From Phlyctochytrium arcticum (taxonomy: Eukaryota; Chytridiomycota; Chytridiomycetes; Chytridiales; Chytridiaceae): 64,000 nt of DNA. Under the pieces are notes generated by a model. It was not told the origin of the DNA and did no database searches. It saw only the letters and a list, made by a program, of their open reading frames with translations. Shown here piece after piece: positions 22,920 through 49,967 of the stretch; positions within the stretch are counted from its first letter, which is position 1, and the number at the start of each line of letters is the position of its first letter. Made by a program: the position numbers and the translations under genes. The DNA is taken from contig JAHLKI010000023.1 of assembly GCA_025602905.1 (NCBI GenBank), positions 370,576 to 434,575 of the forward strand, read 5' to 3'.

Positions 22920-22984
22920 TGCCACGGTGCATAACCGTATACTATGCGCTGGAGGCGCATAGTATACGGTTATGCACCGTGGCA
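22920..22984. repeat. left terminal hairpin of the element
   Basis: 30-base arms (22920-22949 and 22955-22984) are perfectly complementary around the loop TGGAG. The right end carries the same hairpin in inverted orientation, so both read TGGAG from outside in. Such self-complementary termini resemble covalently closed or hairpin viral telomeres, although here they are integrated. Confidence 0.92.
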
Positions 22985-23144
22985 CTGGAAGTTACCCCAT
23001 ATACGGTTTGACCGAATTTGCCCGAAAACAGGCCTAGATGCGAGATCTATCGATAGGATCTCGCCCGAGCTAATAGTATTGTTAATTTGTATATTATAAT
23101 GATGTAATACAGATGTATCCTATTAATAGAATCTTGACCGAACT

Positions 23145-23244
23145 TTGACCGAATATCCGAGCGGCCACATACTCATTCGACGCTAACTCTAATCTTGACC
23201 GAATATCCGAGCGGCCACATACTCATTCGACGCTAACTCTAATC
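23145..23244. repeat. two tandem 50-bp units in the left TIR
   Basis: Two adjacent copies of a 50-base unit start TTGACCGAATATCC and end CTAACTCTAATC. A further partial GACCGAA precedes them, and the same array lies inverted at 49643-49742. It may bind a terminal protein or integrase. Confidence 0.8.
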
Positions 23245-23337
23245 TATCACTATCACCTCTGACTCGATGACGTCATCCGCCCATCTTGCCTTGAATCTCT
23301 TGCCGCTTATTCGCCCCGAAGGTCCCCAGCTACATGT

Positions 23338-23520
23338 CGCTACTTGTCGCTAAACTTTTAGCAAAAAGTCGCAAAAATCCTACATATGTAATAAACGTTT
23401 AAGTGTATTTTACTTTTGTAGGAAAATCACGACTTTTTCAAGTTGCTGAATATTGCTGAATATGATGAAGTGTGTGAAAAGTGTGATTAAATGACCCTCA
23501 CCGCGACAAAACGCAACGGT
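23338..23520. repeat. noncoding module, copy 1 (left TIR)
   Basis: A roughly 180-base stretch starts with GCTAAACTTTTAGC, includes GCTGAATATGATGAAGTGTG and ends with GACCCTCACCGCGA. A second copy is at 24012-24192, both are repeated in the right TIR, and a diverged shorter copy is at 38970-39062. All copies lie between genes. Confidence 0.75.
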
Positions 23521-23533
23521 CTCGATTCTCACA

Positions 23534-23857
23534 CTAATCTATCACTATGACGTCATCCGCCGTCTCTATTATATCTATATTCCGAACCCACACTTCATTC
23601 GTCGTCAGATACAACTCTCTGACTTCCTCTGGCATATTCGTCACGTCTACGCGGCGGGATGTCAAGATCTTGAACTTTAGCTTCTTCAAAACTGATCCTC
23701 GCTTGATTTGATGGCTTGTTATATTCCGCAGCTTCATTGTCTTCTTGATTGTCGCTAACAAGTCTGTATGTTCCTTTATCAGCTTCTGCGCTTTCTTGAA
23801 TTCCTGTGATTGATCCAAGTCTATCAGACGCTCCATCTTCTTCTCAAGGTAATCCAT
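23534..23857 (-). CDS. TIR protein B, left copy (107 aa)
   Basis: Identical to the right copy at 49030-49353. The frame is open to 24010. I start it at 23857 because a TATAAAG box lies about 55 bases upstream of that ATG and the homologue at 21547 starts at the matching point. It is a small, highly charged protein: heptad-like first half (MERLIDLDQSQEFKKAQ), then RRVDVTNMPEEVRE and VWVRNIDI near the end. Family unknown. Genes in TIRs are present twice and may be expressed early. Confidence 0.65.
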   Translation of the reverse strand: MDYLEKKMERLIDLDQSQEFKKAQKLIKEHTDLLATIKKTMKLRNITSHQIKRGSVLKKLKFKILTSRRVDVTNMPEEVRELYLTTNEVWVRNIDIIETADDVIVID

Positions 23858-24011
23858 TGATGCTAACTTGATTCTAACTGAGCATATCTGAGGCAGGTTC
23901 GTCGCTTTATATACTCGTGATTGTATCGATACCTTTTCTTTGTATGGATAGGAAAGAACCAATTGAATCTCTTGCCGCTTATCCGTCCCGAGGTCAATGC
24001 TTCGTACCATG

Positions 24012-24192
24012 CTACATGTCGCTAAACTTTTAGCAAAAAGTAGGAAAAATCCTACATATGTAATAAACGTTTAAGTGTATTTTACTTTTGTAGGAAAATC
24101 ACGACTTTTTCAAATTGCTGAATATTGCTGAATATGATGAAGTGTGTGGAAAACGTGATTAGATGACCCTCACCGCATCAAAACGCAACGGG
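24012..24192. repeat. noncoding module, copy 2 (left TIR)
   Basis: Nearly the same as the module at 23338-23520, with small differences (AAATTGC for AAGTTGC, GTGGAAAACG for GTGAAAAGTG). It separates TIR genes A and B, so it sits downstream of one and upstream of the other. A shared promoter, terminator or packaging signal are all possible. Confidence 0.75.
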
Positions 24193-24314
24193 AATGAAAT
24201 ATCCCGCCCGGGACACTTTTCAGGATCTACCCCTACCCCTATCATCGAGATACGGATACCACTCTTTCGTGATTCTTTCGCTATTCTTTATTGATTCTTT
24301 CGTGATTCGGGCAT

Positions 24315-24770
24315 TTAAAAAATACGCAACTCTCTACCTCCTAACTTGATAATGATTTCATCTTTCTCTTCGTGAAGAAGTAGTTTTATATATTCTGATG
24401 GCGGTAATATAAGCATATTCAAGAATATCTGTTTGGGTACTGCAAGTTTGTCTCCGATAAAGAAACTGACTTTTAAGTGTCGCTCATTAAGAATGAATAC
24501 TGGAAACAAATTAGATCTGTAATCAACACCTTTTTTTCTAAGGTCTTCTAACGGCACTCGAAATGTTTCCAATTGATGATCCAATCTTATATATTCCAAG
24601 ACAACATCGATATTCTTCAAATCAGTTTCATTCAAGCCATCTAGATACAGAGATGAAAAGACTGCGTTTTCTGCTATAGAGACGACATGAAATATTCCGT
24701 CACTATCAGGTTCTATTCTCTTTAATGCGATATCTCCCGTGTCAAATAACAACATTTTCTTGTTTAACAT
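24315..24770 (-). CDS. TIR protein A, left copy (151 aa)
   Basis: Identical to the right copy at 48123-48578. It is predicted to be mostly beta-strand, opening MLNKKMLLFDTGDIALKR and ending with a KLGGRELRIF strand. There is no signal peptide or membrane span. No family is recognised. It is transcribed toward the terminus, like protein B. Confidence 0.65.
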   Translation of the reverse strand: MLNKKMLLFDTGDIALKRIEPDSDGIFHVVSIAENAVFSSLYLDGLNETDLKNIDVVLEYIRLDHQLETFRVPLEDLRKKGVDYRSNLFPVFILNERHLKVSFFIGDKLAVPKQIFLNMLILPPSEYIKLLLHEEKDEIIIKLGGRELRIF

Positions 24771-25006
24771 TCTTCATGTTTTTAAAACTTGGATTGCAAA
24801 CGCAAACGCACCATGTATCATACATTGCATTAATTGAAGCTTTTTATATTTCAAAGTCTGTTATTTTCGGCCGGCAGGGAGTCGAACAATCATGTAGTTA
24901 TAAGTCAAAGAACTCTTTTTTCTTTGAGACACACTGTGAGATGTTATTAGTGTCCAGTTGCAACATTCTTTTACTTTGCAATAGAATAAAAACACGCTAT
25001 GTAAAA

Positions 25007-25402
25007 ATGATCATCGTAGTCGAGGATAACGTTTTCATACGCAAATTGCTGAAGAAGATGATTAATAGTATTACTACAGAACAGGTTCTGTTGTCCTCTA
25101 CAATGTTTTTATTTAATATTTTCAGAGACAATTATGAGGACATTACGTTTGTATTCACTGATATGTTACTTAATGAAAAAATCGAGAGTGATGGATTCGA
25201 ATACAAAGAAGAAGGGCTGAACCTGATAGCGTGGATTCGCCAGGCAGAAAAAGATAACATGGTTACCGACGGCATAAAAATTATAGCTTTTAGTGCCGAT
25301 GCAAGTCTAAAACACAAGGCGCTAGCCGCTGGTGCCGATGCATTCCACATCAAGCCTGTGACAAAACAGATATTGATGGAGATTTTGAAACCTGTAGAGT
25401 AG
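25007..25402 (+). CDS. free-standing response-regulator receiver (REC) domain
   Basis: 131 aa that consist of a REC domain alone. The acidic pair E6-D7 follows a first strand IIVVED, the phospho-acceptor aspartate is D52 in FVFTDML, the conserved Ser/Thr is S96 in IIAFSADAS, and the conserved lysine is K116 in FHIKPVT. All five key positions of a phosphorylatable receiver are present. There is no output domain, as in CheY or Spo0F. In a fungus the natural partner would be a histidine phosphotransfer protein of the HOG-type phosphorelay, so it may tap or drain host stress signalling; this is inference. Start chosen at the ATG opening MIIVVEDN; the longer open frame upstream runs into the TIR boundary. 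Confidence 0.85.
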   Translation: MIIVVEDNVFIRKLLKKMINSITTEQVLLSSTMFLFNIFRDNYEDITFVFTDMLLNEKIESDGFEYKEEGLNLIAWIRQAEKDNMVTDGIKIIAFSADASLKHKALAAGADAFHIKPVTKQILMEILKPVE

Positions 25403-25448: not shown

Positions 25449-25781
25449 ATGAGAAAAAATAAACTTAGAGTCGTTTCAGAATCCGGCGTGGAGATTCTTA
25501 TTTGTAGAATGGTCATTTTTAATGAAGATCAGTTGTCTAGAATTATATACAACTTGAGAGGCAAAGGCGAACATTTTTTCATATTCGTGCCAATTAATGT
25601 ACTTAATCGAAAATTGTTCGAAAAGATTATTTCGATATCAAGCGTACTGACTCCCCGTAATAATAAAAAACTTAGACGTGAATTCCTGGAATCAGGATAC
25701 TTGAATATTTGTGAAAAATGTGTTGCATTGGGTTGCAACAAAGACACTTCAATTGAGTTGCTCGAGTTGGAATATGATTAA
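25449..25781 (+). CDS. small element protein, unknown (110 aa)
   Basis: Follows the receiver gene by 46 bases on the same strand. Start at the ATG opening MRKNKLRVV. A mixed alpha/beta protein with two nearby cysteine-containing segments (NICEKCVALGC) that could bind a metal. Its stop overlaps by four bases with the stop of the fibre gene on the other strand. Being next to the receiver domain, it could share regulation or function with it. No family is recognised. Confidence 0.55.
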   Translation: MRKNKLRVVSESGVEILICRMVIFNEDQLSRIIYNLRGKGEHFFIFVPINVLNRKLFEKIISISSVLTPRNNKKLRREFLESGYLNICEKCVALGCNKDTSIELLELEYD

Positions 25782-28700
25782 TATTCGAGCATCTGCAAGT
25801 CGATGCGAGAATTCCCGTCAAAGCCTAAATTACTACCTGTCCATGTCAAAGTGAAGGTGTGTGCTCCAATAGAAAGCCCTGTAGTAATGAATGACAGTGG
25901 GAATCGCAAAATCTGACCTGTATATCTCCAGAACAAATACATAGTTTTGACAACATTACCATCAATTCTAAGAGAGACATCTATACCGTAATTATCCGAG
26001 TTTGCATACAAGGCGATACTCCCCATATACGTTTGCGTCGTTCGTGTCGTTGTAAAAGCCTTGGAGAAACCACTTGGAATACCCGTTTGACCGGTCCCTG
26101 CGTTATCCCATATGTTCACAACAACAGGTCGAGTCAACAAACCCTGACCATCAAGATATAATCCCGAATCTGCTTTGATGTACATCATGTTTTGATATGG
26201 TGAAGCGGTTGTTGTATTGCCTACTCCTATGTAACCGGAGACAGTAGCATTGTTGTTCTCGAATTGGATGGATGAATAGCCGCTAGTATGTCGATTTTTT
26301 ATTTTAAGGACATTGCCAGCAAAATTTGCTTGTATGACATTTTGGGTTACTGAATTAAACCCGAAGTCGACCTGAGATTGGCTATGGATCAACCCGGCAC
26401 CACCGATTGGGCCTAAGGATAAAGTCAACGTATTGGAATACCAGCCAATGAAGCGGTGGTTCGTAGGGGTGTCAAAGAAATGCAGATCCCCTCTTTCATG
26501 TACAGGTGTACAATTTATATACATGTTGCCCAAGTTGATTTGGCTGAAACCCGTATTCGGAATCTTCAGATAAGACCCATTAATCGTAATGTCTCCAGTT
26601 GTTGTCAAACTGGGCAAAGTTGGTGTTGCACCAGACAAACTTGTAAGATTCGCATGAAGCGGTTGTTTGCTACCAAGAGATGTTGTCAGTGAAGTCCCTG
26701 CGACAAAAACATCAGTACCGACATACAGTTTTTTAGCAATACTTGCTCCGCCTGAAACTCTCAGAGCGCCGCTGTCGAGACCTGTTGCCTCTGTTGTTGG
26801 ATAAACAAATACTGTTGTTGCATCGATCGTGAATGCGTTAAAATTTCCAATACCCGGTGCCGAAGAACCAGTAGCAGTATTACTAGTATTTAGGAAAATA
26901 TCTAGGGCGTTGGTTGACTGTTGTTGTCCATGATGTCTTGACCTTATAAAATGTCGAAATCCCCCATCCTTAAATTGAAACGCGATGCCGCCAGTACCGA
27001 ATGTTCCTTCTGCGGCAGCACCTCCCCCCATCGTAATCCATTTAGAAACACCCATGCCTCCACGAACTTGGAGAGCCCCCGTATCAACAGATGATGAGTC
27101 GGTTGTCGTTGATATGAGTACAGAACCGTCTCCTTTTAGTTGAAGCATATGACTAGATAAACTGAAGTTGTAAAATCCGAGAGATCCGTTTTGAAGTCCT
27201 CCAGTACCTGCAGAACCAGCATGATATATTCCCCATTGACAACTAGAGGAAGCGTTGTTCATAGAAAGAACACCATTTCCTGCCGTTGCAGTAGAAGGCG
27301 CATTTATTGTAATACCAAGTGGTTGATTGCCAGTACCTAAATTCAGTGTGAGAAGTTTGGACGTTATTGAAGTATCGTAACCAGTCAGTTTTGTTTCAAT
27401 TGGTGCAAGACGAGTATTGTAGTCTGAAGTCAGAACATAATTCGGAACGTTTGATATTCTTGAAAAGTTCAGTTGTCCAATCGATTCTGAAGTTGACAAG
27501 TCTACATTATTCTTCAAGGCTAATGAACCGAGTGTCGGTTTACCTGCCAATGTATCCCATTCAATACCTAAAGTAAATTTTATATCATCAGAATTATCAG
27601 TTGTAATCAAAGGCTGAAGTGTCGAAGTATTTACCTTACTGATTGGGAGAATACCAGTTACCTCGGTTGTTGAAAGGTCGATACTATTTTTTAAAGCAAG
27701 TGAACCAAGAGTAGGCCGACCGACTAGCGTATCCCATTCGATGCCTAGAGTTTGTCTAATCTCGTCTTTGTTATAATCTGCTATTAAAGGTTGAAGTTCA
27801 GAAGTATCAATTTTACTAATTGGTAGAATACCGGTTACCTCGGTTGTTGAAAGGTCGATAGAATTCTTCAAGGACAACGAACCGAATACTGGCTTACTTG
27901 TGACATTCCCCCAATCAATATTACCGCTAGATGCCGTACTCGATAATCCCAAAGTTGTCTTGATTGATGCTGCATTTCCCGAGGTGATCAAAGGTTGAAG
28001 TGCCGCGATTTGAGTCGTCACGTATTCTTGGCTTGCAACTAACTTGTTTCCTGCGAGAAATACACCAGTTGATTGAATACGAAGTTGTTCACTTAATGTT
28101 CCATTTAATCCGGTGGAAGATGAGATACTAATAGCGCTTCCATAGTTGTTGTCATCAATTATTGAAATCTGTGAAGAGAGTTTATTAGCAGAGGGTGAAA
28201 AGCGAATATTCTGAGTTGAATCACTGTTTTTAACGACTGTAACGTTATCAACGAGCTTAGATGAACTAAATCCTCCAGAGGAGCCGCGGAATATCACTGG
28301 TACATTACTTGTCAAAGTCCCGGCGTCTGTATTCTGTAAACTAGTGACGAATATATTATTCACAAATACCTCAAGTTTGTCATAAGTGAATACCAGCTTC
28401 ACCGTTATCCAAGTATTTCTTACAAGTGACAAAGGAGGAATCGTTGTTTGATTTACGTTAGAAGGACTCCATATTCTTGTATAATTATAAAAGGAACTAA
28501 ACCCAACTCTCCATCCTCCACATACAATTTCGAGACCTTCATCGTTTCCGCTTCCATAATAAAGATCTGCTTGTAATGTCCAGTATCTTCCTAAAGATGT
28601 GATATTATAGGTTAACGTACCATTTGAATGTGTCTGACCGGCTACTTGTAGATTCACCCACTTGTTTGTTGTATCATACGCTGCAGTTCCCGCCAATGTA

Positions 28701-31180
28701 CCAGTAGGAGCACTTGTGAAATTATCAGTTAGAAGTGAAGTTGAAGTCGAGTCCACACCAGACAATGACAGAATACTAGTGATTGTATTTTGCTTTGTCG
28801 AAATAGATGTATCAATTGCCGTCTGCCGAATATCGTATACTGATTGTGAGACTTTGGTTGCAATAGATGAATTAATATTCGACAAGTCAGTACTCCTATT
28901 CAAATATACACTTAGGTCGGGAGTTCCGGAAATATTCGAATATGGAATTTTGTTCGTACCACTTATTTTCGTCTGGTAATTATTGTTTAGATCTCCTTCA
29001 ATTGACTCTAGCAATGCCTGTTGTGTATCTATAAGATCAGTTATTGGATTCACTAGTTGAGAGACGAGACTCACGGTACTAGGTTGAATTATTTGGGAAT
29101 CATACTGGCGCAACATTTCCAGGTTTATCGCTTGTTGTTTGTATTCACCAGCTATGCCAAGATACGAGCAAGACGGGGGCGTATCAAAGAGAAGCCTCGT
29201 TGCATCACATCCGGTATTATCTGGCATTGTCACTATAACAACATTTGAACCGGGCTCCAAGTCAATGTTTCCATCAGAATCCAGAATTGGATCACCATTA
29301 GTGTCTTCTTTACGCTCGCGCCTCCTGCCAAAAATGGAGATAAAACCGCCCGTGGCTGCAGCTCCTAACAACAACCCTCCAGAACCCGCAATGGCACCAA
29401 TTGCACTTGAAGCTGACCCAATTGCACTGCTGCCTCCCAGAATACCACCAAGTCCAGAAAGCGCCCCGGCCAATCCACCTGTAACTTGAATAATATCGCC
29501 TCCGTTCTTCAACACTTTACCTTCACTCCCTTCAGTTGTTTCTTCATTAGGAGCATCCTCTGCTTTTTCTTGAGTCAGTGTATCAATTGAACTGATTGAA
29601 TATCCTGTACCCGTTGGAGTCACGATTACCCCAGTGCCGCCAACCAGAGTCATAGTGTTATTTATTGAGCGACCAGAAACACTGATGAAATTACCACCTA
29701 TATACGGGCTTTCCTCGGGTGCCTCATATTCGTATGTGCAGGAAATCGTCGAGCCACTAATGGAAATATTCTGGCCCGCTGAATACGCGCCTCGAAAATC
29801 ATTTCCAACTCTTGATATTCCGTTACTAGCGGTCAGGACTTCTTCAATATTCGTGTTGGTGCTATTCATTTGAAGCCCACCTGATACTGTAAGATCCAGG
29901 CTGACCTCATGTGAGGAATTCTGATAAAGACCATTGCTGAAAGAGAGCCCGGATGAAATCTTACCTTGAGAATCGACTCGTATAGACGAGTTGTCTACCA
30001 AGGGACTTGGGTTTACTGAAAGATTCATATTCGTGTCAACCGCTAAACTCGCATCAGTATTCAATTCAACTACTTGGTCTCGAATCACAACTGCTCCACT
30101 CCCCTGGTACACACCCTTCACGTATTCGGCAGTTGTTGCCTCATAGTCACTTGGATTGCTATTTGGTGATAGATTCACATGTCCCACACTAAGTTCATTC
30201 AGTGTCTCTGAATACGTAAAGTCACTAGTTCTATTCAAACCTGCAATCCCGTTGTCATAAGGAATCTGCCCTAATCCCTGACTTCTAAACGCCAGCTTGT
30301 TACCCGTCTGCTGAAAATTTTCATGGTCCACCTCGAGTTTGACAAGTGATCCGTCAATGGATTCGGTAATATCTCGATAAACTGATATGGCGCCGGCTCC
30401 CTTGAGACTCTTGGAGACATCCTGTATTTTTGCTTTTAATTTGTTATCATCTACTTCAAGTGTATCTTCATCAATTCGTAAGGAGACTTGACCATCGATT
30501 TCATCTAATGGGTATTCGAATACCAACTTGTCGGGAATACGGGCCTTCAACTCACCTCCATCAATATCCATAGTCTCGCTGTCTATCTTGAGGGACAATT
30601 TGTGACTATTTAGAACATTGTAATAGAACGGATCAGAGATTTTGAGACTCAACCCTTTTGCAAATAGATTCAAATCACCGTCAAGTATAGATTCTGCGTC
30701 TTCCATATGAGATGCATACCTTAACTCTATTTGGTCATCGTCATTGTAGAAGAGCGGACTGTTCAATTCAGGTGGATCCGGAATTCTGGCTGCTAATTGA
30801 TTCTCTTGATTAACGAATAATGAGTCTTCGTCAATCAAGAGAGCTATGGTCCGTCCATTGTTTGAGTCATTTTCTTCACATGAAAGCGGAACCTCATAAG
30901 AGGGATCAATTGTGGTTAGAAGATTATCTTCTGTTATATTCAGTCGATGAGGATCTATATTCAAGGAAGTGGTTGCCTCCCCCTTGGAAAGACTGGTTGA
31001 AAGTGGTGACTGACTTGAGACGTAGTTTACCTTCATTTCGCCATTAGTATTCGATAGTTTTGCGACATTGATACTACTATATTCGTCTCCTTTTAGCTCT
31101 CCCGAGATGAAGCTGTCGGATATAATCGTGCTATTAAGATTTCTCAATCCATTTGCGGATCTTGAATTTAACCCACTCAT
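25778..31180 (-). CDS. giant fibre/spike-like virion protein (1800 aa)
   Basis: Start at the ATG opening MSGLNSRSANG. Residues of about 60-300 hold four spaced repeats of a pattern like IDxDTLxVxxNKLxAKIxD. A Gly/Ser-rich hydrophobic segment of about 50 residues follows near 570-620 (GGLAGALSGLGGILGG) and is closed by RRRERK, like a membrane or fusion segment. A LamG/concanavalin-like beta sandwich lies near 825-1000. Three 62-residue repeats near 1095-1280 each contain WDTLxGxPTLGSLALKN. Tail-fibre-like, Asn/Thr/Gly-rich text continues to the C-terminal beta domain. The closest analogy is phage tail fibres and giant-virus fibre proteins. It is the largest gene of the element and probably mediates attachment. 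The composition suggests a trimeric beta fibre. Confidence 0.7.
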   Translation of the reverse strand: MSGLNSRSANGLRNLNSTIISDSFISGELKGDEYSSINVAKLSNTNGEMKVNYVSSQSPLSTSLSKGEATTSLNIDPHRLNITEDNLLTTIDPSYEVPLSCEENDSNNGRTIALLIDEDSLFVNQENQLAARIPDPPELNSPLFYNDDDQIELRYASHMEDAESILDGDLNLFAKGLSLKISDPFYYNVLNSHKLSLKIDSETMDIDGGELKARIPDKLVFEYPLDEIDGQVSLRIDEDTLEVDDNKLKAKIQDVSKSLKGAGAISVYRDITESIDGSLVKLEVDHENFQQTGNKLAFRSQGLGQIPYDNGIAGLNRTSDFTYSETLNELSVGHVNLSPNSNPSDYEATTAEYVKGVYQGSGAVVIRDQVVELNTDASLAVDTNMNLSVNPSPLVDNSSIRVDSQGKISSGLSFSNGLYQNSSHEVSLDLTVSGGLQMNSTNTNIEEVLTASNGISRVGNDFRGAYSAGQNISISGSTISCTYEYEAPEESPYIGGNFISVSGRSINNTMTLVGGTGVIVTPTGTGYSISSIDTLTQEKAEDAPNEETTEGSEGKVLKNGGDIIQVTGGLAGALSGLGGILGGSSAIGSASSAIGAIAGSGGLLLGAAATGGFISIFGRRRERKEDTNGDPILDSDGNIDLEPGSNVVIVTMPDNTGCDATRLLFDTPPSCSYLGIAGEYKQQAINLEMLRQYDSQIIQPSTVSLVSQLVNPITDLIDTQQALLESIEGDLNNNYQTKISGTNKIPYSNISGTPDLSVYLNRSTDLSNINSSIATKVSQSVYDIRQTAIDTSISTKQNTITSILSLSGVDSTSTSLLTDNFTSAPTGTLAGTAAYDTTNKWVNLQVAGQTHSNGTLTYNITSLGRYWTLQADLYYGSGNDEGLEIVCGGWRVGFSSFYNYTRIWSPSNVNQTTIPPLSLVRNTWITVKLVFTYDKLEVFVNNIFVTSLQNTDAGTLTSNVPVIFRGSSGGFSSSKLVDNVTVVKNSDSTQNIRFSPSANKLSSQISIIDDNNYGSAISISSSTGLNGTLSEQLRIQSTGVFLAGNKLVASQEYVTTQIAALQPLITSGNAASIKTTLGLSSTASSGNIDWGNVTSKPVFGSLSLKNSIDLSTTEVTGILPISKIDTSELQPLIADYNKDEIRQTLGIEWDTLVGRPTLGSLALKNSIDLSTTEVTGILPISKVNTSTLQPLITTDNSDDIKFTLGIEWDTLAGKPTLGSLALKNNVDLSTSESIGQLNFSRISNVPNYVLTSDYNTRLAPIETKLTGYDTSITSKLLTLNLGTGNQPLGITINAPSTATAGNGVLSMNNASSSCQWGIYHAGSAGTGGLQNGSLGFYNFSLSSHMLQLKGDGSVLISTTTDSSSVDTGALQVRGGMGVSKWITMGGGAAAEGTFGTGGIAFQFKDGGFRHFIRSRHHGQQQSTNALDIFLNTSNTATGSSAPGIGNFNAFTIDATTVFVYPTTEATGLDSGALRVSGGASIAKKLYVGTDVFVAGTSLTTSLGSKQPLHANLTSLSGATPTLPSLTTTGDITINGSYLKIPNTGFSQINLGNMYINCTPVHERGDLHFFDTPTNHRFIGWYSNTLTLSLGPIGGAGLIHSQSQVDFGFNSVTQNVIQANFAGNVLKIKNRHTSGYSSIQFENNNATVSGYIGVGNTTTASPYQNMMYIKADSGLYLDGQGLLTRPVVVNIWDNAGTGQTGIPSGFSKAFTTTRTTQTYMGSIALYANSDNYGIDVSLRIDGNVVKTMYLFWRYTGQILRFPLSFITTGLSIGAHTFTLTWTGSNLGFDGNSRIDLQMLEY

Positions 31181-36441: not shown

Positions 36442-36457
36442 GTTAAGGTCACCAGAA

Positions 36458-40003: not shown

Positions 40004-41449
40004 ATGACCGACATTCTAGAATCCATTAAAAATTATGCAGAATCGCCTTATAGCACGGACGCTTTGATAGCCAAAATCATCAAAAGAGATCCTGACCAAG
40101 AAGCATTTTTCGGCCTATTGTTAGCCAACGCGAGTCCAGAATTGGCCGAATATGTGACAAGTGTCTTTCAAAACAATGAAGCTCCCCAACCGCTACAAAT
40201 GAGTATGGAACCAGAACCGGAACCAGAACCGTTGCACGTAACCCGCGATTTCATCAATATGGTGTTCAGGCGCGAATTGGACAATCCAAACAAGACACGC
40301 CAAGATTCAACGATCAACAGAAGTCGCTATAGTGCTTTGAATGGGCACACCTTGTTTGAGGTAGAGGAAAATGATGGTATTATGGATCATGTAAAAATGA
40401 AGGATATTCTCGATACGACATACGAGAATATTCTGCAATCAACCGATAATAGGCATGAGCACAAGTGTCGAATACGCGCCGTTAAGGATTATTGCACAGG
40501 GATTGCAGTTTTCCTATCGATTCTGACCGACGAGGAAAAGAAACAAGTTGCTTCTTATGACGAGTTGAAAGAGATGATTTCAAAGTATCAAACATTTATC
40601 AATGGCAAAATTAATGAAATCGATGAAGAACAAGAAGCAAATAATGCTCAAATTGAACACTATATTCCGGGGGATGTGACATCCGAAATGGGCAATGATT
40701 TCCTGAATACCATCGATGCGAACACTTGTTCAAAAGAAGAATTTAGAAATGCCATGATTGTAACACTTTACATTAACTACCCTCCTCGCCGTAGTGAAGA
40801 TTATTCGACCATGTCGTTGAATGAAACAGAAAAGAACTACTATAAGGACGGTGTCATTTATCTATCCAAGTACAAGACTTTCTTCTTGTATGGCGAATAC
40901 ATAATGAACCTAAGGAGTGAAGATGTGAAGCTATTTGAAACATATAAGGAACGATTTGGCACTGAGGAGAAAATATTTGGAAAATGGGACTCAAACTGGT
41001 CCAAGAAAGTCGCAAATGTGATGAATCGAATACTAGGCAAACCGTTGACTAGTACAGATCTCCGAAAGAATTACGTGACCTATCATACGTCAATTGGAAC
41101 ACTCAATTACTTGAGTGCGAAGAAAGAAATCGCTAGACAGATGGGACATTCTATTAATTTACAAGTTCTGAACTATACGTTTAAAGTTCCAGAAACACAA
41201 CCAGCAGCACAATTACCAGAAACAACATTAGAGGCAGCTGTACCATCATCATCGACATCGACTTGTCATCATCGTTGGACACCAGAGGAAGACGAAATAC
41301 TTCTTGAAATGATGGAAGATTTTGCAAATAATCCACCAGTACAGGACTCCTTGCAAACATACATTGCAAATTCAAAGCGAGTGGGAGATCTAACACCTGA
41401 ACAGATTCGTTCTAGATTGAGAAACTTGAAAAGACAAAAAAGAATCTAA
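40004..41449 (+). CDS. tyrosine recombinase with C-terminal Myb/SANT-like domain
   Basis: 481 aa. The catalytic domain lies at about residues 240-395: the first arginine is in YPPRRSEDYS (near 262), a lysine-bearing beta turn follows, TSTDLRKNYVTYH supplies the next conserved part, then ARQMGHS (near 377-383) and the nucleophile Tyr in LNYTF. This is the R..(K)..HxxR-like..GHS..Y order of phage-type integrases, with the first H replaced. After a Thr/Pro-rich linker comes HRWTPEEDEILLEMM, a SANT/Myb-like helix set. An acidic repeat (EPEPEPEP) lies near residue 70. Polinton-like viruses often carry a tyrosine recombinase. Its stop touches the stop of the retrovirus-type integrase on the other strand without any gap. 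Confidence 0.82.
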   Translation: MTDILESIKNYAESPYSTDALIAKIIKRDPDQEAFFGLLLANASPELAEYVTSVFQNNEAPQPLQMSMEPEPEPEPLHVTRDFINMVFRRELDNPNKTRQDSTINRSRYSALNGHTLFEVEENDGIMDHVKMKDILDTTYENILQSTDNRHEHKCRIRAVKDYCTGIAVFLSILTDEEKKQVASYDELKEMISKYQTFINGKINEIDEEQEANNAQIEHYIPGDVTSEMGNDFLNTIDANTCSKEEFRNAMIVTLYINYPPRRSEDYSTMSLNETEKNYYKDGVIYLSKYKTFFLYGEYIMNLRSEDVKLFETYKERFGTEEKIFGKWDSNWSKKVANVMNRILGKPLTSTDLRKNYVTYHTSIGTLNYLSAKKEIARQMGHSINLQVLNYTFKVPETQPAAQLPETTLEAAVPSSSTSTCHHRWTPEEDEILLEMMEDFANNPPVQDSLQTYIANSKRVGDLTPEQIRSRLRNLKRQKRI

Positions 41450-42718
41450 TTAGCGATTATATTCTCTTTCGAAATCCTCTATTTCGTCAGCGAAATCGTC
41501 TTCTAAGAGAGATTCTCTCGGTTCCCAGGTGTTGGAATCTTCACTATAGCCCTTCCATTGTATTAAATAAAATATTCTTCTTCTAGACAATTTCTTGTCC
41601 AAAATAGCTTCTACTTCGTATTTCTCAATGTCATCATCTTCTTCATCTTCATTTTCTTCTTCTATAGTTTCAGTATTCGTATTTGCAGGTTCAGGTAAAG
41701 GATTTTCTGACTGATCGACCTTTCGTAATTCATAAGCTGAATACAATCCAAACATATCATTCCCTAACGCATTAGTAATCTTAAAAGCATCTTGATAAGA
41801 TTGGCGTGTGGATTTGATGACCTTGGAGACTGTATATATTTCTTTGCTGAAGTATCCTTTTTTACTACGCTTCTCCACTTTACTAATTTGGGTCAATTTA
41901 CGCACTTTGTCTCCTACTTTAATATCAACTACTAATTTTGCTCCCCTGCCTTTCGTCCTTGCTACTAGTTGTTTCTGATAAGCAACTTCAGGATTATCTA
42001 GAATCTGTTGAGTTGTCATATTCGCACTACCAAAGTGAATAGCGCTAGTATTCAGGTTTTCGACAACCTTTGGCAAGGCTGCAGGCCAATTTAAATCTCC
42101 AAGCTGAATACTTTTGAACAAAATATTCTTAATTGTTGCATTAACGCGTTCGACATGCGAATTCGATTGGGGTCTTCCGGGGCGACTAAAGGTCCACTGA
42201 ATACCATTCTCTTCTGCGAACGTCTGCACCAAACCCTGGAATTCGCTACCGTTATCTCCGTTTATATAGACCATCTCGACACCGTCTTCTAACACATCAT
42301 CGAGAAAGTCTCTAACTTCTTGCTGAGTATTCGCCTTTAGAGATTTTGAATACAGTTTTTTACTAAAGATGTCGATTAAATTCACAATATAATTAAAACC
42401 ATTATACGAATGCGACCTCATATTCACTGTATCGATTTGAAACGTCCCTGGCTTCGAGGACAGGATCGGTCTGATACTACCCTTTGATCCAACAGGACGC
42501 GTCGTTCTCTGCCAAATCTCCTGGCGTCGAAGCCAAGATAATATAGTACGTTGAGACACTTTAGAATCCGGATAGCGTGACCGGAAACTATAATATAATC
42601 GGTCACGGCCATATAAGTTCTTATCGTTGTAGAAAAAGTCTTTCAATCGACGTGCATCTAGATTTGTTAGCTCTTTCGAATATTGTAGACTCCTCGATTT
42701 AATGACAGGTTCTTCCAT
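41450..42718 (-). CDS. retrovirus-type (rve) integrase with chromodomain
   Basis: 422 aa. The catalytic acidic triad is visible: D96 in GTFQIDTVN, D155 in YINGDNGSEF and E190 in SNSHVERVNA. The last two are 34 residues apart. The N-terminal helical region replaces the HHCC finger of retroviruses, and a basic SH3-like part (VGDKVRKLTQ) follows. The C-terminus from about residue 365 is a chromodomain: YEVEAILDKK, FYLIQWKGYSEDSNTWEP. It resembles integrases of Polintons/Mavericks and chromoviruses. The 5-bp GTTAC duplication at the element borders suits this enzyme better than the tyrosine recombinase. The chromodomain may direct insertion to particular histone marks. Confidence 0.9.
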   Translation of the reverse strand: MEEPVIKSRSLQYSKELTNLDARRLKDFFYNDKNLYGRDRLYYSFRSRYPDSKVSQRTILSWLRRQEIWQRTTRPVGSKGSIRPILSSKPGTFQIDTVNMRSHSYNGFNYIVNLIDIFSKKLYSKSLKANTQQEVRDFLDDVLEDGVEMVYINGDNGSEFQGLVQTFAEENGIQWTFSRPGRPQSNSHVERVNATIKNILFKSIQLGDLNWPAALPKVVENLNTSAIHFGSANMTTQQILDNPEVAYQKQLVARTKGRGAKLVVDIKVGDKVRKLTQISKVEKRSKKGYFSKEIYTVSKVIKSTRQSYQDAFKITNALGNDMFGLYSAYELRKVDQSENPLPEPANTNTETIEEENEDEEDDDIEKYEVEAILDKKLSRRRIFYLIQWKGYSEDSNTWEPRESLLEDDFADEIEDFEREYNR

Positions 42719-42742: not shown

Positions 42743-44263
42743 TTATCGCCGTCTTTGACGTTTCGCCGCAGCTGGCGCAATAAGGTCTCTATCGTATTGC
42801 TCCTGCTGTCTTGCTGCTCTTCGAGGGTTCAAGATGGCCGTACCAGTGGGTTCACCAGGGTTTCGTCGAACTGGTGCAATTCTTCGTGTTGACACAACTG
42901 TTGGTGCCGGTGGTACTACTACAACTGGTCTAGGGTTGAATTGAAACGGTTGTGAAAATTCAGCAGGACGTGCACTTGGTGTCCGTTCAATATTCACAAA
43001 ACCTGGTGGTTCGAGTCTAGTATTCTTCTTGCGACGTTTTGGAGTCGGTGCCATTTGATCTCGGTTATATTGTTCTTGCTGACGCAAAGCTCGACCTGGG
43101 TTAAGGATCGCTGTGCCTGTAGGTTCCCCTGGTTGTCGTCTTAGTTCAGTAATAGGTCGCAAAGTTGAGGACGGTGTAGGTGCTGGTGCTACTGGCGCTG
43201 GTACGACTTCATTTTCAACTGTATCGACTTCTACAATACGAGGCGGAGCAGGAGCAGGAGCAGGAGTTATAGTTATCTCACGTGGACGTACAACTTCCTC
43301 GACACTGGGACGAACAACTTCCTCGACACCTGGACGTACAACTACTGCTGGAGTCATCGGAACCAATCTTCTCGGTCTCCGCGGGGGAACGGGATTCACT
43401 CGATTAGGAGTACGATTCGGTCGATCAACAAATGGTGAAAGATAATTAGGTACAATCTCTGTCCTGTTGGGTTCAACATGAACAGGATCGACAATGATGA
43501 TGGGAGGAACTGGTCCGGGGATTGGAGAAGGCGGTTCCGGTTCCGGTTCAATTGGCGAGGGAATTGGTACCGGTTCGGGTGACGGTATTCGAGGAAACCC
43601 TCCTGGCAACTCAACTACTCTTTCTCTTTCTCTATCAATTCGAATCGGGTTGGGATTCAAGGTTCCCGCTGCGTCTGATGCGAATGTTTGTCCCGTTTCA
43701 TTGTCTTGTCGAATAACTGTTTGCAATGTTTCAACCATGGGAGGCGGTACTGAATCAGTTCCTTGTGGCGGTCGTTGGAATTCCCTAATATTACGAGGCG
43801 GCTCGAAGCGAATACCGCTCATGCCAGCTACTTCATCGCTGTAATGCGGTACGACTCCATTGACAGATGGAATCGGCATGAAGGAACGATTAGTACCTGA
43901 AAGTGATTTCTCTGGAATGAGTGAATCAAGAAAGTCTTTTTGTTTTTTATAAGACAACTCAATGTTCTTATATTCCGAATAATCCTTATAAGCCTTTGTA
44001 GCATAGACTGTGTTGGCCATATTCGTCACAGACAGTGACGGTTTAGCAACATTGTTGTTCATCATACGTTCGACTGTACTGTATTTCCCATTATCCAATC
44101 TTTGTGTGAGGTGATTCCATGTTTTTACAATCTTCCCAGGTCGTCCAAATGAATCATACTTATACCCATCGACAATATTCGTAATGAGATTGTCTTGAGC
44201 ATTCACTTGGCCGGGTGTATCATTGACACCCATGAACTCTAACGTATTCGTTCTGTACACCAT
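42743..44263 (-). CDS. proline-rich element protein, probable virion component (506 aa)
   Basis: The first 130 residues are folded-looking (LITNIVDGYKYDSFGRP, KYSTVERMMNN). Pro/Val/Arg-rich low-complexity sequence follows, with PEPEP, PAPAP and VVRPGVEEVVRP runs. Two copies of GEPTGTAILNP followed by RQQEQY lie near 380 and 470, with a third related RRQPGEPTG. The C-terminus is RRR. Lying among capsid genes, it could be an internal DNA-binding or scaffold protein. No family recognised. Confidence 0.55.
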   Translation of the reverse strand: MVYRTNTLEFMGVNDTPGQVNAQDNLITNIVDGYKYDSFGRPGKIVKTWNHLTQRLDNGKYSTVERMMNNNVAKPSLSVTNMANTVYATKAYKDYSEYKNIELSYKKQKDFLDSLIPEKSLSGTNRSFMPIPSVNGVVPHYSDEVAGMSGIRFEPPRNIREFQRPPQGTDSVPPPMVETLQTVIRQDNETGQTFASDAAGTLNPNPIRIDRERERVVELPGGFPRIPSPEPVPIPSPIEPEPEPPSPIPGPVPPIIIVDPVHVEPNRTEIVPNYLSPFVDRPNRTPNRVNPVPPRRPRRLVPMTPAVVVRPGVEEVVRPSVEEVVRPREITITPAPAPAPPRIVEVDTVENEVVPAPVAPAPTPSSTLRPITELRRQPGEPTGTAILNPGRALRQQEQYNRDQMAPTPKRRKKNTRLEPPGFVNIERTPSARPAEFSQPFQFNPRPVVVVPPAPTVVSTRRIAPVRRNPGEPTGTAILNPRRAARQQEQYDRDLIAPAAAKRQRRR

Positions 44264-44352: not shown

Positions 44353-44664
44353 ATGAGCTTCGGCAAGTTCTTAACCAATGGAAGGAAGACTCTCAAGACG
44401 TTTTGGAATAACGCTCCCTCTCATTTAAAAAGTGCACGCGGTTTCGCTGCAAGTGCTGTCGGATTCGCTAACAAAGGAAGCAAACTGATACAAGGTGTCA
44501 ATAAGTCGATTCAAGAAAGCCCAGAGCTCTTCAACGAGAAGATTCGATCAACAGCGGATGATCTAACCAACAAGACGGGAAAAGGCGTAAAGAAACTAAG
44601 TGATCTTCATGCCTCAAGTGACAAGTTTGTGGATCGACTAAGTACTAATTTAAGCGGTGACTAA
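44353..44664 (+). CDS. small amphipathic virion-type protein (103 aa)
   Basis: A basic protein with an amphipathic first helix (FGKFLTNGRKTLKTFW) and a Gly/Ala-rich middle (SARGFAASAVGFANKGS). Its size, charge and place in the capsid gene block recall the small membrane-acting or DNA-condensing virion proteins of Polintons and adenoviruses. This is by position only. The stop overlaps the ATPase stop on the other strand by four bases. Confidence 0.5.
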   Translation: MSFGKFLTNGRKTLKTFWNNAPSHLKSARGFAASAVGFANKGSKLIQGVNKSIQESPELFNEKIRSTADDLTNKTGKGVKKLSDLHASSDKFVDRLSTNLSGD

Positions 44665-45371
44665 AAGTAGTCTTTGAATACGTTACCTTCGCAATACTTG
44701 TATATATCTTTAGCTGTATTCTTTGAGAGATCGACAAAGCAGAATGAATATGGTGTTTTAGTACAGTCAATCAAATACTCAAGAACTTCACCTTTTGTCG
44801 CGTGAGAGGTCACAAGCGTCTCCGATAGCGCTTGAAGATCCTTCTGATTGTTCTTGAATATGAACCATTCCGTTGTACAATTTTTTTGCTTCCCTGAAAG
44901 CTGACTCTTAATTGACTGGCAACAGACGATAATGCTGATATTGAAGTGACGTCCCTTGGTGAATAAGAGGTCAAGCTGTTTTGCCAAATGTTTCGATCGC
45001 GCACCGTCCGCCGCATCGTCGATGAACAGCAGTATTCGATCCTCGCAATTATTGTCCTGTTGTTCCTTCACAATAGCGGCAATACTCTCATTAGAGACAT
45101 CATCAGTGAAATAGATATTATTGTGTTTCGTGGTCTTGGCTAGCTGTTGAATACAAGTATCATACCTAACAGTGTCTGACATAACGATAACCTTGTCGAA
45201 TACTCTGGCGTAGACATCTTGAATCAAACCCGAAACTAACGCCGATTTTCCACTTTTCCGGGGTGCCACAAGAGTGCAACACAACGGATGACTTGGTAAC
45301 GGCTCAGGGACGCGAGGATCCCTTTCAATAGCTTTCGGATTGTATATGGGCTTTACCTTGTACGTCGTCAT
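44661..45371 (-). CDS. A32-type genome-packaging ATPase (FtsK-HerA)
   Basis: 236 aa. Walker A is APRKSGKS (residues 36-43), Walker B is RILLFIDDAAD, and a sensor-like SIIVCCQS follows after a GRHFNI segment. Length and motif order fit the packaging ATPases of Polintons, virophages and nucleocytoplasmic large DNA viruses. It would pump the genome into the capsid. It is convergent with 44353-44664 and divergent from the penton-like gene (30 bases between starts). Confidence 0.88.
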   Translation of the reverse strand: MTTYKVKPIYNPKAIERDPRVPEPLPSHPLCCTLVAPRKSGKSALVSGLIQDVYARVFDKVIVMSDTVRYDTCIQQLAKTTKHNNIYFTDDVSNESIAAIVKEQQDNNCEDRILLFIDDAADGARSKHLAKQLDLLFTKGRHFNISIIVCCQSIKSQLSGKQKNCTTEWFIFKNNQKDLQALSETLVTSHATKGEVLEYLIDCTKTPYSFCFVDLSKNTAKDIYKYCEGNVFKDYF

Positions 45372-45401: not shown

Positions 45402-46118
45402 ATGATTAACGAGTTGACGTACTGTTCCCTTAAGCGGCGCTCGTTCAACATTGAGAAGCGGAACGTTTCATTTGTGAAAATCTTGTCAGTCAGTTTCCTT
45501 CAAGATTACGATTTGATCAACAATACTAACAACATATTCGCCTTCAATGAGGACGGGAATACCGACACGATTAAAGCCAGTATTCCTCATGGCAACTACA
45601 CTGTAGCAAACTACCCACAAGCTGTTGCCGCTGCGATGACTACAGCAGGGAGCCAAGCGTATTCTTCAAGTTACAATCAAATTACTCGAAAGATTACTAT
45701 AACAGCGGTGGACAAAGACTTTTCAATTCTACCAGGTGTTGAGGGTACCAATGCGTATTCAGTTAGCGGCATGTCGAATCGAACTGCATCGCCTATGGCA
45801 AAGACTGTCACATTTAAAAATAGTGTCAATTTATCTGGTAGCTATCCGATTCTATTGACATCGAATATCAATGTTCCAAGCGTTAGATATCTATCTGATT
45901 ACAATGATACCGCGAGTACTATTATAGCGACCGTCGTTCCCGATTCGTTTGGGGACGTCATTACATTCACCAATGACTCTGAATGGTTACCCTGTAATGA
46001 CACTATCAGCAAAGTGGAGTTTCATCTAATTGATTCACAAACAGGTGAAGAACTTGCATTGAATTCACCATTAACAGTGAGATTCTTGATAGCCGACGAC
46101 ATTTCAGATGTTCAATAA
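45402..46118 (+). CDS. penton-like minor capsid protein (238 aa)
   Basis: A beta-rich protein of jelly-roll size. HGNYTVANYPQAVAAAM near residue 65 resembles the conserved G-x-Y-T motif of Polinton and Polinton-like virus penton proteins. ITITAVDKDFSILPG and TASTIIATVVPDSFGDV fit later strands, and the end (LTVRFLIAD) is a final strand. It lies directly before the coiled-coil gene and the major capsid gene, the usual block. A single jelly roll forming the fivefold vertices is expected. Assignment rests on motif, size and neighbours. Confidence 0.7.
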   Translation: MINELTYCSLKRRSFNIEKRNVSFVKILSVSFLQDYDLINNTNNIFAFNEDGNTDTIKASIPHGNYTVANYPQAVAAAMTTAGSQAYSSSYNQITRKITITAVDKDFSILPGVEGTNAYSVSGMSNRTASPMAKTVTFKNSVNLSGSYPILLTSNINVPSVRYLSDYNDTASTIIATVVPDSFGDVITFTNDSEWLPCNDTISKVEFHLIDSQTGEELALNSPLTVRFLIADDISDVQ

Positions 46119-46147: not shown

Positions 46148-46603
46148 ATGTCGGACCATAACGAAAATGAGCTACCAATCGAGCCTGAGCAACCCATTGA
46201 AGAAGAAGTTGAACAAGAAATTGAACAACCCGTTGAACCTTCACCTCCACCTGAACCAATTCAAGAAGTGAAGAAAAAGAAACAAACAGCGAATATGATC
46301 AAAGCGCAAAAAGAACGGACTCGACAATTAAGAGAGATGCAGCAGAAGCGAGATGAAGAGAAACGTATTCAAGATGAAAGAACACGTATTCAAAATGCCT
46401 ATGATTTGGTCAATGAATTAGAAGAGAAAAAGAGACAAGAAAAGCAACAAAAGAAAGAAGAAAGAGCGCGTAAAAAAGCGGAACGTTCTTCAACAGCGAA
46501 TACCAAAAAGAAGGCTGTTGCTCCCAAGAAACCAGTTAGTACAAGAAAAGCAACACCTGTTCCACAATATTCAAATGATGACTTTGGAGGAATATTCGGA
46601 TAA
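46148..46603 (+). CDS. charged coiled-coil protein (151 aa)
   Basis: Acidic Glu/Pro-rich N-terminus (EEEVEQEIEQPVEPSPPP), then a long basic coiled coil (RQLREMQQKRDEEKRIQ), a Lys/Ala-rich stretch and a C-terminal FGGIFG. The gene is 29 bases after the penton-like gene. It could be a scaffold or core protein. No family recognised. Confidence 0.5.
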   Translation: MSDHNENELPIEPEQPIEEEVEQEIEQPVEPSPPPEPIQEVKKKKQTANMIKAQKERTRQLREMQQKRDEEKRIQDERTRIQNAYDLVNELEEKKRQEKQQKKEERARKKAERSSTANTKKKAVAPKKPVSTRKATPVPQYSNDDFGGIFG

Positions 46604-47895: not shown

Positions 47896-47950
47896 ACGAA
47901 CAATTGAATATTTAAAAAAAAACATAAAGATAAGAATATAATCATAAAAA

Positions 47951-48026
47951 TCCGGCTGTAGTGTAAAGGTTATCATAAGGTTTCTTCATCGCATTCCCGA
48001 TGCAGGGTTCGACTCCCTGCCGGCCG
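47951..48026 (+). tRNA. tRNA-like sequence at the inner edge of the right TIR
   Basis: TAGTGTAAAGG fits the A box and GGTTCGACTCC the B box of RNA polymerase III promoters. CAGGG/CCCTG closes a normal T arm, and the order resembles eukaryotic tRNA-Glu. However, the acceptor strands (CCGGCTG near 47952 and CCGGCCG near 48019) pair only partly, and I cannot place a proper anticodon loop. It is either a degraded or intron-bearing tRNA, or a tRNA-derived promoter. The last 20 bases belong to the TIR. Confidence 0.3.
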
Positions 48027-48122
48027 AAAATAACAGACTTTGAAATATAAAAGCTTCAATTAATGCAATGTATGATACATGGTGCGTTTGCGTTTGCAAT
48101 CCAAGTTTTAAAAACATGAAGA

Positions 48123-48578
48123 ATGTTAAACAAGAAAATGTTGTTATTTGACACGGGAGATATCGCATTAAAGAGAATAGAACCTGATAGTGACGGAATA
48201 TTTCATGTCGTCTCTATAGCAGAAAACGCAGTCTTTTCATCTCTGTATCTAGATGGCTTGAATGAAACTGATTTGAAGAATATCGATGTTGTCTTGGAAT
48301 ATATAAGATTGGATCATCAATTGGAAACATTTCGAGTGCCGTTAGAAGACCTTAGAAAAAAAGGTGTTGATTACAGATCTAATTTGTTTCCAGTATTCAT
48401 TCTTAATGAGCGACACTTAAAAGTCAGTTTCTTTATCGGAGACAAACTTGCAGTACCCAAACAGATATTCTTGAATATGCTTATATTACCGCCATCAGAA
48501 TATATAAAACTACTTCTTCACGAAGAGAAAGATGAAATCATTATCAAGTTAGGAGGTAGAGAGTTGCGTATTTTTTAA
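48123..48578 (+). CDS. TIR protein A, right copy (151 aa)
   Basis: Same protein as at 24770-24315, transcribed toward the right terminus. The ATG at 48123 follows the tRNA-like sequence by about 95 bases. The function is unknown. Identity of the two copies indicates either recent insertion or copy correction between TIRs. Confidence 0.65.
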   Translation: MLNKKMLLFDTGDIALKRIEPDSDGIFHVVSIAENAVFSSLYLDGLNETDLKNIDVVLEYIRLDHQLETFRVPLEDLRKKGVDYRSNLFPVFILNERHLKVSFFIGDKLAVPKQIFLNMLILPPSEYIKLLLHEEKDEIIIKLGGRELRIF

Positions 48579-49029
48579 ATGCCCGAATCACGAAAGAATC
48601 AATAAAGAATAGCGAAAGAATCACGAAAGAGTGGTATCCGTATCTCGATGATAGGGGTAGATCCTGAAAAGTGTCCCGGGCGGGATATTTCATTCCCGTT
48701 GCGTTTTGATGCGGTGAGGGTCATCTAATCACGTTTTCCACACACTTCATCATATTCAGCAATATTCAGCAATTTGAAAAAGTCGTGATTTTCCTACAAA
48801 AGTAAAATACACTTAAACGTTTATTACATATGTAGGATTTTTCCTACTTTTTGCTAAAAGTTTAGCGACATGTAGCATGGTACGAAGCATTGACCTCGGG
48901 ACGGATAAGCGGCAAGAGATTCAATTGGTTCTTTCCTATCCATACAAAGAAAAGGTATCGATACAATCACGAGTATATAAAGCGACGAACCTGCCTCAGA
49001 TATGCTCAGTTAGAATCAAGTTAGCATCA

Positions 49030-49353
49030 ATGGATTACCTTGAGAAGAAGATGGAGCGTCTGATAGACTTGGATCAATCACAGGAATTCAAGAAAGCGCA
49101 GAAGCTGATAAAGGAACATACAGACTTGTTAGCGACAATCAAGAAGACAATGAAGCTGCGGAATATAACAAGCCATCAAATCAAGCGAGGATCAGTTTTG
49201 AAGAAGCTAAAGTTCAAGATCTTGACATCCCGCCGCGTAGACGTGACGAATATGCCAGAGGAAGTCAGAGAGTTGTATCTGACGACGAATGAAGTGTGGG
49301 TTCGGAATATAGATATAATAGAGACGGCGGATGACGTCATAGTGATAGATTAG
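49030..49353 (+). CDS. TIR protein B, right copy (107 aa)
   Basis: Same protein as at 23857-23534. TATAAAG at 48977 lies 53 bases upstream of the chosen ATG. The longer frame from 48877 would put that TATA box inside the coding region. A homologue is in the element-2 remnant at 21547-21206. It is a charged, probably coiled-coil protein that ends 614 bases from the terminus. Confidence 0.65.
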   Translation: MDYLEKKMERLIDLDQSQEFKKAQKLIKEHTDLLATIKKTMKLRNITSHQIKRGSVLKKLKFKILTSRRVDVTNMPEEVRELYLTTNEVWVRNIDIIETADDVIVID

Positions 49354-49902
49354 TGTGAGAATCGAGACCGTTGCGTTTTGTCGCGGTGAGGGTCATTTAA
49401 TCACACTTTTCACACACTTCATCATATTCAGCAATATTCAGCAACTTGAAAAAGTCGTGATTTTCCTACAAAAGTAAAATACACTTAAACGTTTATTACA
49501 TATGTAGGATTTTTGCGACTTTTTGCTAAAAGTTTAGCGACAAGTAGCGACATGTAGCTGGGGACCTTCGGGGCGAATAAGCGGCAAGAGATTCAAGGCA
49601 AGATGGGCGGATGACGTCATCGAGTCAGAGGTGATAGTGATAGATTAGAGTTAGCGTCGAATGAGTATGTGGCCGCTCGGATATTCGGTCAAGATTAGAG
49701 TTAGCGTCGAATGAGTATGTGGCCGCTCGGATATTCGGTCAAAGTTCGGTCAAGATTCTATTAATAGGATACATCTGTATTACATCATTATAATATACAA
49801 ATTAACAATACTATTAGCTCGGGCGAGATCCTATCGATAGATCTCGCATCTAGGCCTGTTTTCGGGCAAATTCGGTCAAACCGTATATGGGGTAACTTCC
49901 AG

Positions 49903-49967
49903 TGCCACGGTGCATAACCGTATACTATGCGCCTCCAGCGCATAGTATACGGTTATGCACCGTGGCA
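49903..49967. repeat. right terminal hairpin of the element
   Basis: Perfect palindrome with 30-base arms and loop CTCCA, the exact inverse of the left end. The next five bases are the GTTAC duplication (49968-49972). Confidence 0.92.

Follow-up and report, generated by a model that had tools for sequence, protein, structure and literature searches.

Polinton-like viruses (PLVs) are considered related to the ancestors of both adenoviruses and giant viruses. We know of no settled account of how those without the DNA polymerase PolB replicate their ends. Fold-back termini whose loops occur as flip and flop are found in the inverted terminal repeats of parvoviruses (adeno-associated virus, AAV) and in the hairpin telomeres of poxviruses and African swine fever virus (ASFV); poxviruses also carry a D5-type primase-helicase. 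For fungi, the available text of a 2021 study (PMC7805220) describes one PLV from Spizellomyces punctatus as well as PLV genes from Allomyces macrogynus; among its fungal and oomycete elements, seven have terminal inverted repeats (TIRs) and three have target-site duplications (TSDs) of 5-7 bp. A 2023 protist survey, as far as its accessible text goes, left Fungi out (PMC10120064). Here we describe an element at positions 22920-49967 of a window, the whole 64,000-nt stretch of DNA that was analysed, from the chytrid Phlyctochytrium arcticum (Chytridiomycota, Fungi). The evidence supports its identification as an integrated PLV, and its ends are palindromes capable of folding back.

How does this locus compare with the described systems? 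With Polintons/Mavericks the element shares a retroviral-type (rve) integrase, a double jelly-roll capsid, a packaging ATPase and TIRs. Those elements have a protein-primed PolB, whereas Pfam finds none in the 20 distinct open reading frames (ORFs) here (four overlapping ORFs of at most 126 aa lay outside the scan) and a PrimPol-D5 primase-helicase is present instead; the palindromic TG...CA ends set the element further apart from them. Unlike AAV, poxviruses and ASFV, it is integrated, as we read it via its retroviral-type integrase, and Pfam scans of its ORFs give no match to Rep or to an A22-type resolvase. Cryptophyte PLVs resemble it in their expansion in one lineage, their rve integrase or YREC, their TIRs and their TSDs; in the available text of PMC12220804 the two recombinases are alternative integrases and rve TSDs are typically 6 bp, whereas here an rve integrase gene and a tyrosine-recombinase-like (YR-like) gene lie side by side and the TSD is 5 bp. 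The S. punctatus PLV is likewise an integrated chytrid PLV, but the text of PMC7805220 reports one copy of it, against many matches in P. arcticum, and a chitinase in 52% of its group, against none found by Pfam scans of the ORFs of our element. In the open-access literature searched we found no account of PLV ends that are hairpins or palindromes, including in the available text of PMC7805220 (where 'hairpin' occurs 0 times), PMC12220804 (where 'hairpin' and 'palindrom' occur 0 times), PMC10120064, PMC11071308 and PMC6723459. Fungal PLVs as such are not novel, with Spizellomyces on record since 2021; novelty seems to lie in the hairpin ends.

The element is an insertion of 27,048 bp with a 5-bp duplication, GTTAC, on either side, and each of its ends is palindromic over 65 nt, with arms of 30 nt around a loop of 5 nt, the palindrome beginning exactly at the duplication. 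Its terminal features, in window coordinates, are these:

22915-22919, left target-site duplication, GTTAC
22920-24887, plus strand, left TIR
22920-22984, left terminal palindrome, loop TGGAG
23145-23245, tandem repeat of 2 x 50 bp near the left end, with its mirror at 49642-49742
23534-24010, minus strand, telomere-proximal gene, left TIR copy, 158 aa, pointing to the end
48007-49967, minus strand, right TIR
48877-49353, plus strand, telomere-proximal gene, right TIR copy, identical
49903-49967, right terminal palindrome, same arms, loop TGGAG when read from outside inwards
49968-49972, right target-site duplication, GTTAC

Aligned to each other, the TIRs span 1,968 columns with 0 mismatches and seven gap positions in two indels, which bears out the precise insertion, 5-bp duplication and near-identical repeats of about 1.96 kb claimed in a preliminary description of this DNA. 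GC content is mostly 35-46% inside the element (one 1-kb block has 48%) and about 43-55% in most, not all, of the flank blocks. The same description had named an assembly chimera as one of the dangers to its reading. A chimera is unlikely, because the right-terminal 2,212 nt of the element recur on contig C45 at 99.7% identity beside another flank, and because related insertions own separate 5-bp duplications.

Folded as single-stranded DNA, the terminal palindrome forms a hairpin of -40.1 kcal/mol (z about -14), and 0 of 200 shuffles are as good. Over the last 2,212 nt the C45 copy departs from the right end in the window at seven positions, namely two adjacent bases and all five bases of the loop, and the C45 loop is the exact reverse complement of the window loop, a flip/flop pair. 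The flanks are unlike (GTCAC... at C45, GTTAC... at the window element), and the two copies are therefore separate insertions. That the loop is inverted in a near-identical copy suggests fold-back copying of the viral ends. At an insertion on C1 (TSD TGCCG), too, the two ends have identical arms and opposite loops, and in family B, one of four families (A-D) that we grouped by capsid identity, TAA contrasts with TTA on identical arms in C18 versus C17/C26 and in C16 versus C41.

Palindromes of this type recur throughout the assembly (31.5 Mb in 91 contigs). A scan for GTGCATA-N16-46-TATGCAC returns 86 sites, against one for a reversed control pattern; inspection by eye of the 50 sites listed shows palindromes or near-palindromes at 45 and none at the other five. 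We extracted 37 termini, mostly found via this pattern. Left aside were the duplicate locus of C1 (C3:1361088, C3:1387068), the second end at each of C40 and C6:103482, the site C4:1443607, which is the same as C5, and the family-C palindromes of 102-104 nt. All 37 share the outer motif TGNNAYRGTGCATA, in which GTGCATA is common partly by choice, because the pattern used for finding most of them contains it; an outer TGNNAYRG is common to them besides, with TG at the start and CA at the end. Their lengths (56-69 nt) and inner arms vary, and family-C ends have arms of 51-52 nt without GTGCATA. Despite this variation the arms are fully complementary outside the centre in 36 of the 37, and where equal-length termini are compared pairwise an arm difference is mirrored in the opposite arm in 282 of 284 cases (pairs are not independent events; the count skips the central nine positions and any pair with more than 45% differences). 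The right terminus on C7 has one broken arm pair, as has C3:1361088 with one arm mismatch, which is as expected of mutation after insertion. Different palindromes stand at the two ends of an insertion on C2 (TSD AGCTC).

Where both ends of a palindrome-bounded pair were read (11 pairs, the duplicate locus C3:1361088-1387132 left out), a perfect 5-bp duplication is present at nine: C23, which is the window element, C1, C6:775917, C15, C4:348968, C2, C3:238225, C13 and C7. At C4:900741 the duplication agrees at four of five bases. By family knowledge, TG...CA ends and a 5-bp duplication fit an rve integrase, and for this reason we infer that this enzyme, not the YR-like protein, would be the integrating one.

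The gene nearest to each end of the element encodes a 158-aa protein that has no Pfam match and 83 matches genome-wide, fragments included. To relate it to the palindromes we used the 45 palindromes among the 50 listed sites and 34 gene matches on contigs C1-C17, six short fragments and C17:708639 being set aside. In this count 21 of the 34 gene matches have a listed palindrome at a distance of 0.25-0.8 kb and are all oriented towards it, and a gene match falls within 1.5 kb of 22 of the 45 palindromes. A relative (38% identity over 95 residues) is carried even by a 4.6-kb insertion on C7 in which no core virus gene is matched, and because the gene keeps this place beside palindromes we regard its product as a candidate telomere protein.

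Taking these observations together, we consider it likely that the element is a PLV with hairpin telomeres, whose ends invert in replication as those of parvoviruses and poxviruses do, which integrates through its rve integrase and which is one of a large set of such elements in this genome. The viral genome would be linear, with ends that fold back, and its replication would fall to the PrimPol-D5 primase-helicase together with a host or helper polymerase. A fold-back end would template its own copying, so that the arms stay symmetric while the loop is turned over. The hairpins would then be opened and copied to full-length blunt ends, 5'-TG...CA-3', which the rve integrase would join to the chromosome with a 5-bp stagger, while particles would be built from capsid, ATPase and fibre. 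Candidates for end processing may be the YR-like protein and the telomere-proximal 158-aa protein, and the free ends could be either covalently closed, as in poxviruses, or open fold-backs, as in parvoviruses.

Several observations weigh against this interpretation. All the evidence comes from integrated copies in one assembly, and in them the fold-back-capable ends are many but a clean loop contrast on the same inner sequence is provided by one pair of ends (C23, C45). The inner sequences of the two C1 ends are unrelated, and the family-B contrasts could be point mutations, because a single central base differs. Elsewhere loops agree: at both ends of the window element, at both ends of C6:775917 bar one missing base, and at the ATATGT-type ends (C2, C7 left and right; three of three). 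The C6:103482 pair lacks a normal TSD and has inverted copies of one flank instead; the insertions C6:775917-792674 and C7:648173-652802 have no capsid, ATPase, YR, integrase or primase-helicase match. No listed palindrome lies near 13 of the 34 telomere-proximal gene matches, and 23 of the 45 palindromes have no such match within 1.5 kb. Finally, Pfam scans of the element's ORFs reveal no known nickase or junction resolvase, and the YR assignment failed every profile test.

Might the palindromes instead be dimeric binding sites for the integrase of an ordinary PLV, with symmetry kept by protein binding and the loop turned by cruciform extrusion in the chromosome followed by repair? Relatives of the rve integrase do occur at many places in the genome, the 37 termini do have their outer motif in common, though GTGCATA belonged to the search pattern, and most of the loops compared show no inversion. 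However, such sites would not require arms that are perfect over about 28-52 nt and whose inner sequence changes yet remains mirrored, and near-identical insertions at separate sites that differ almost solely in the loop are easiest to understand if it was turned during replication. We therefore hold this explanation to be doubtful.

A different proposal concerns the YR-like protein (40004-41449), which might act as a telomere resolvase and cut palindromic dimer junctions into closed hairpins, in the manner of TelN or TelA. Tyrosine recombinases have the active site pattern R-K-(H/x)xxR-H-Y on the YR fold, and TelN of phage N15 is a tyrosine-type enzyme whose telRL cut site, annotated as a 56-bp inverted repeat, recalls the ends described here. 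In the YR-like protein the corresponding residues would be R262/R263, K291, TDLR354, GH382 and Y391; among five homologues R, K, GH and Y are invariant and the second Arg is kept in four. The gene adjoins the integrase gene in families A and B, and in a family-C element a 342-aa ORF takes the same place. That ORF is only 18% identical, however, and in the alignment it keeps R263, R354 and Y391 but not K291 and GH382. For the YR-like protein itself the protein database gives no homologue at E <= 0.001, PDB no match by sequence or profile, and Pfam, NCBIfam and PHROGs none to a recombinase; hhalign comparisons with TelN and lambda Int are insignificant, and its structure model (pLDDT 40) is unusable. 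Its assignment as a tyrosine recombinase is that of a candidate only. The palindrome-bounded insertion C4:348968-373844, moreover, has no YR match, nor any integrase match. The window ends have an asymmetric 5-nt centre, whereas TelA, according to the available text of PMC3558466, acts on particular palindromic central 6-bp sequences, most altered ones giving no hairpins. A resolvase role for this protein thus seems improbable to us. That the palindromes and the inverted loop are read or polishing errors is hardly credible, since, error-prone as long palindromes are and even if the mirror-image layouts at C40 and C6:103482 could be fold-back assembly errors, there are many different palindromes, nine of 11 pairs have perfect 5-bp duplications, and in 2,212 nt no more than two differences fall outside the loop, which suggests that the ends are accurate.

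The identification as a PLV rests on the predicted fold of the capsid, the A32-type ATPase, the primase-helicase, the rve integrase, the TIRs and the TSD, and this combination sustains the earlier assertion of a Polinton-like layout in a fungal chromosome. The element contains 26 ORFs that start with ATG and reach 100 aa or more. Four of them overlap larger ones, and the remaining 22 sum to about 85% of its length; two occur in both TIRs, which gives 20 distinct ORFs. Besides the telomere-proximal gene they are:

24315-24770, minus strand, second TIR-encoded ORF, 151 aa, with a copy at 48123-48578 on the plus strand
24725-25402, plus strand, response-regulator receiver domain (residues 96-221), just under the Pfam cut-off
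25449-25781, plus strand, 110-aa ORF
25778-31180, minus strand, fibre-like protein, 1800 aa, weak match to the avian-adenovirus fibre N-terminus
31462-32382, minus strand, C5-cytosine DNA methyltransferase, Pfam E 3.5e-49
32395-33195, minus strand, D12-class N6-adenine DNA methyltransferase, Pfam E 1.5e-28
33633-36167, minus strand, PrimPol plus D5/P4-type primase-helicase, Pfam Prim-Pol 3.4e-18 and D5_N 1.6e-9
36335-37075, plus strand, cysteine-rich protein, 246 aa
37488-38366, minus strand, possible third DNA methyltransferase, NPPY motif by eye and weak PHROG match (E 7.4e-4)
38518-38949, plus strand, 143-aa ORF
39265-39888, plus strand, zinc-finger protein (RING-like by eye), 207 aa
40004-41449, plus strand, YR-like protein, by motif only, with a C-terminal Myb-like match just under cut-off
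41450-42718, minus strand, rve integrase with C-terminal chromodomain, Pfam rve 2.2e-12
42743-44263, minus strand, proline-rich protein, 506 aa, possibly a minor virion protein
44353-44664, plus strand, 103-aa ORF
44661-45371, minus strand, A32-type genome-packaging ATPase, Pox_A32 E 2.7e-8, over the curated cut-off
45402-46118, plus strand, candidate minor capsid/penton protein, by position only
46148-46603, plus strand, charged protein, 151 aa
46651-47895, plus strand, major capsid protein, double jelly-roll by predicted fold

The preliminary description had counted about 20 intact genes, and 20 distinct ORFs are indeed there; the packaging ATPase and primase-helicase it named are both confirmed by Pfam. 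It had proposed structure prediction for the capsid, and the resulting model has the double jelly-roll fold at low confidence (pLDDT 59.5; TM-scores 0.26-0.36 in the listed matches). Its remark that PLVs are rarely documented in fungi fits the available text of the 2021 and 2023 studies cited above. As to its suggestion that the element may still be functional, open frames and a near-identical second insertion are only consistent with this. The description did not mention the palindromic ends, the flip/flop copy or the abundance of related copies. Among the less certain products, the candidate penton has no Pfam match and no PDB profile match, and the receiver piece has no PDB match at E <= 0.01. 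The fibre-like protein matches the avian-adenovirus fibre N-terminus in Pfam (E 4.3e-5) with no individual stretch significant, and has no PDB match at E <= 0.1.

The genome holds a large, partly recent set of integrated double-stranded DNA virus elements. Fragments included, there are 59 capsid matches (24-100% identity, at least four families) and 51 ATPase matches, together with 40 primase-helicase matches and 105 integrase matches, many of them chromodomain-only; these numbers are not element counts, because one gene can yield several fragment matches. The near-identical element on C45 is cut by the contig start, and 3,708 nt round its ATPase gene are identical to the window element. The element on C26 has a primase-helicase identical to that of the window over 844 aa and a capsid only 51% alike, so that modules have probably been exchanged recently between virus families. 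The C7 insertion (C7:648160-652815; 4.6 kb, palindromic ends, duplication ACAGA, an 11-bp tandem array) is probably a non-autonomous derivative. The insertion C6:775917-792674 spans 16.7 kb and has palindromic ends, the duplication AACGT, a MULE transposase domain and no TIR seen beside the palindromes. A family-C element (L044) carries a SET-domain gene at 3031-3642 and, near its end (7340-7813), an HNH endonuclease gene with an AP2 match under cut-off. Mirror-image layouts at C40 (an inverted element pair) and C6:103482-127750 (inverted flanks) may be biological or assembly fold-backs.

Searches for homologues returned proteins of Powellomyces hirtus and P. arcticum and no S. punctatus protein. 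IMG/VR scans with the ATPase, a major capsid protein alignment, the primase-helicase and the integrase found no relatives; one IMG/VR stretch with an outer-motif palindrome was dropped as chance, as 0 of 17 window proteins matched it and its ORFs were not PLV-like in appearance.

The flanks of the element contain further features. To its left, another terminal palindrome, 60 nt long (TGTGATAGTGCACTTAAAATCCC...), lies at 20892-20951; tandem repeats come next, along with a 113-aa relative of the telomere-proximal gene at 21206-21547, and the whole appears to be the left terminus of a further element, 2 kb leftward of the main one. In the right flank two more hairpin palindromes (TGTGACAGTGCRTTGTTCATAAACC), at 62613-62673 and 63505-63559, lie about 0.9 kb from each other. 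This flank also has a Ty3-type retroelement (52032-57865) with a chromodomain and open gag-like and pol-like frames. The left flank carries a gene for a GH18-LysM-chitin-binding protein (3358-7086) and a DBP10-type helicase; the former was rejected as a viral chitinase, since it sits in host sequence. Rfam gave no match at gathering score within the window.

What would a PLV with hairpin ends imply? If our interpretation is true, hairpin ends with loop inversion would be a concrete mechanism of end replication for PLVs without PolB, and PLVs with PrimPol-D5 would be tied to the replication mode of poxviruses and ASFV. We entertain only as an improbable extension that chytrid PLVs maintain hairpin telomeres with a dedicated module, made up of a YR-type telomere resolvase and a new telomere-proximal protein; to our knowledge such a resolvase would be the first in any eukaryotic virus. 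On the same tentative footing, the hairpin telomeres of nucleocytoplasmic large DNA viruses could then descend from PLV-like ancestors in which a D5-type primase was already paired with fold-back ends. The viral receiver domain is a possible handle on a host phosphorelay. Fungi were omitted by the 2023 survey, in its available text (PMC10120064), and here a large set of integrated double-stranded DNA virus elements is present in a true member of that kingdom; if the ends are what we take them to be, the origin of hairpin telomeres would become testable by comparison of chytrid genomes.

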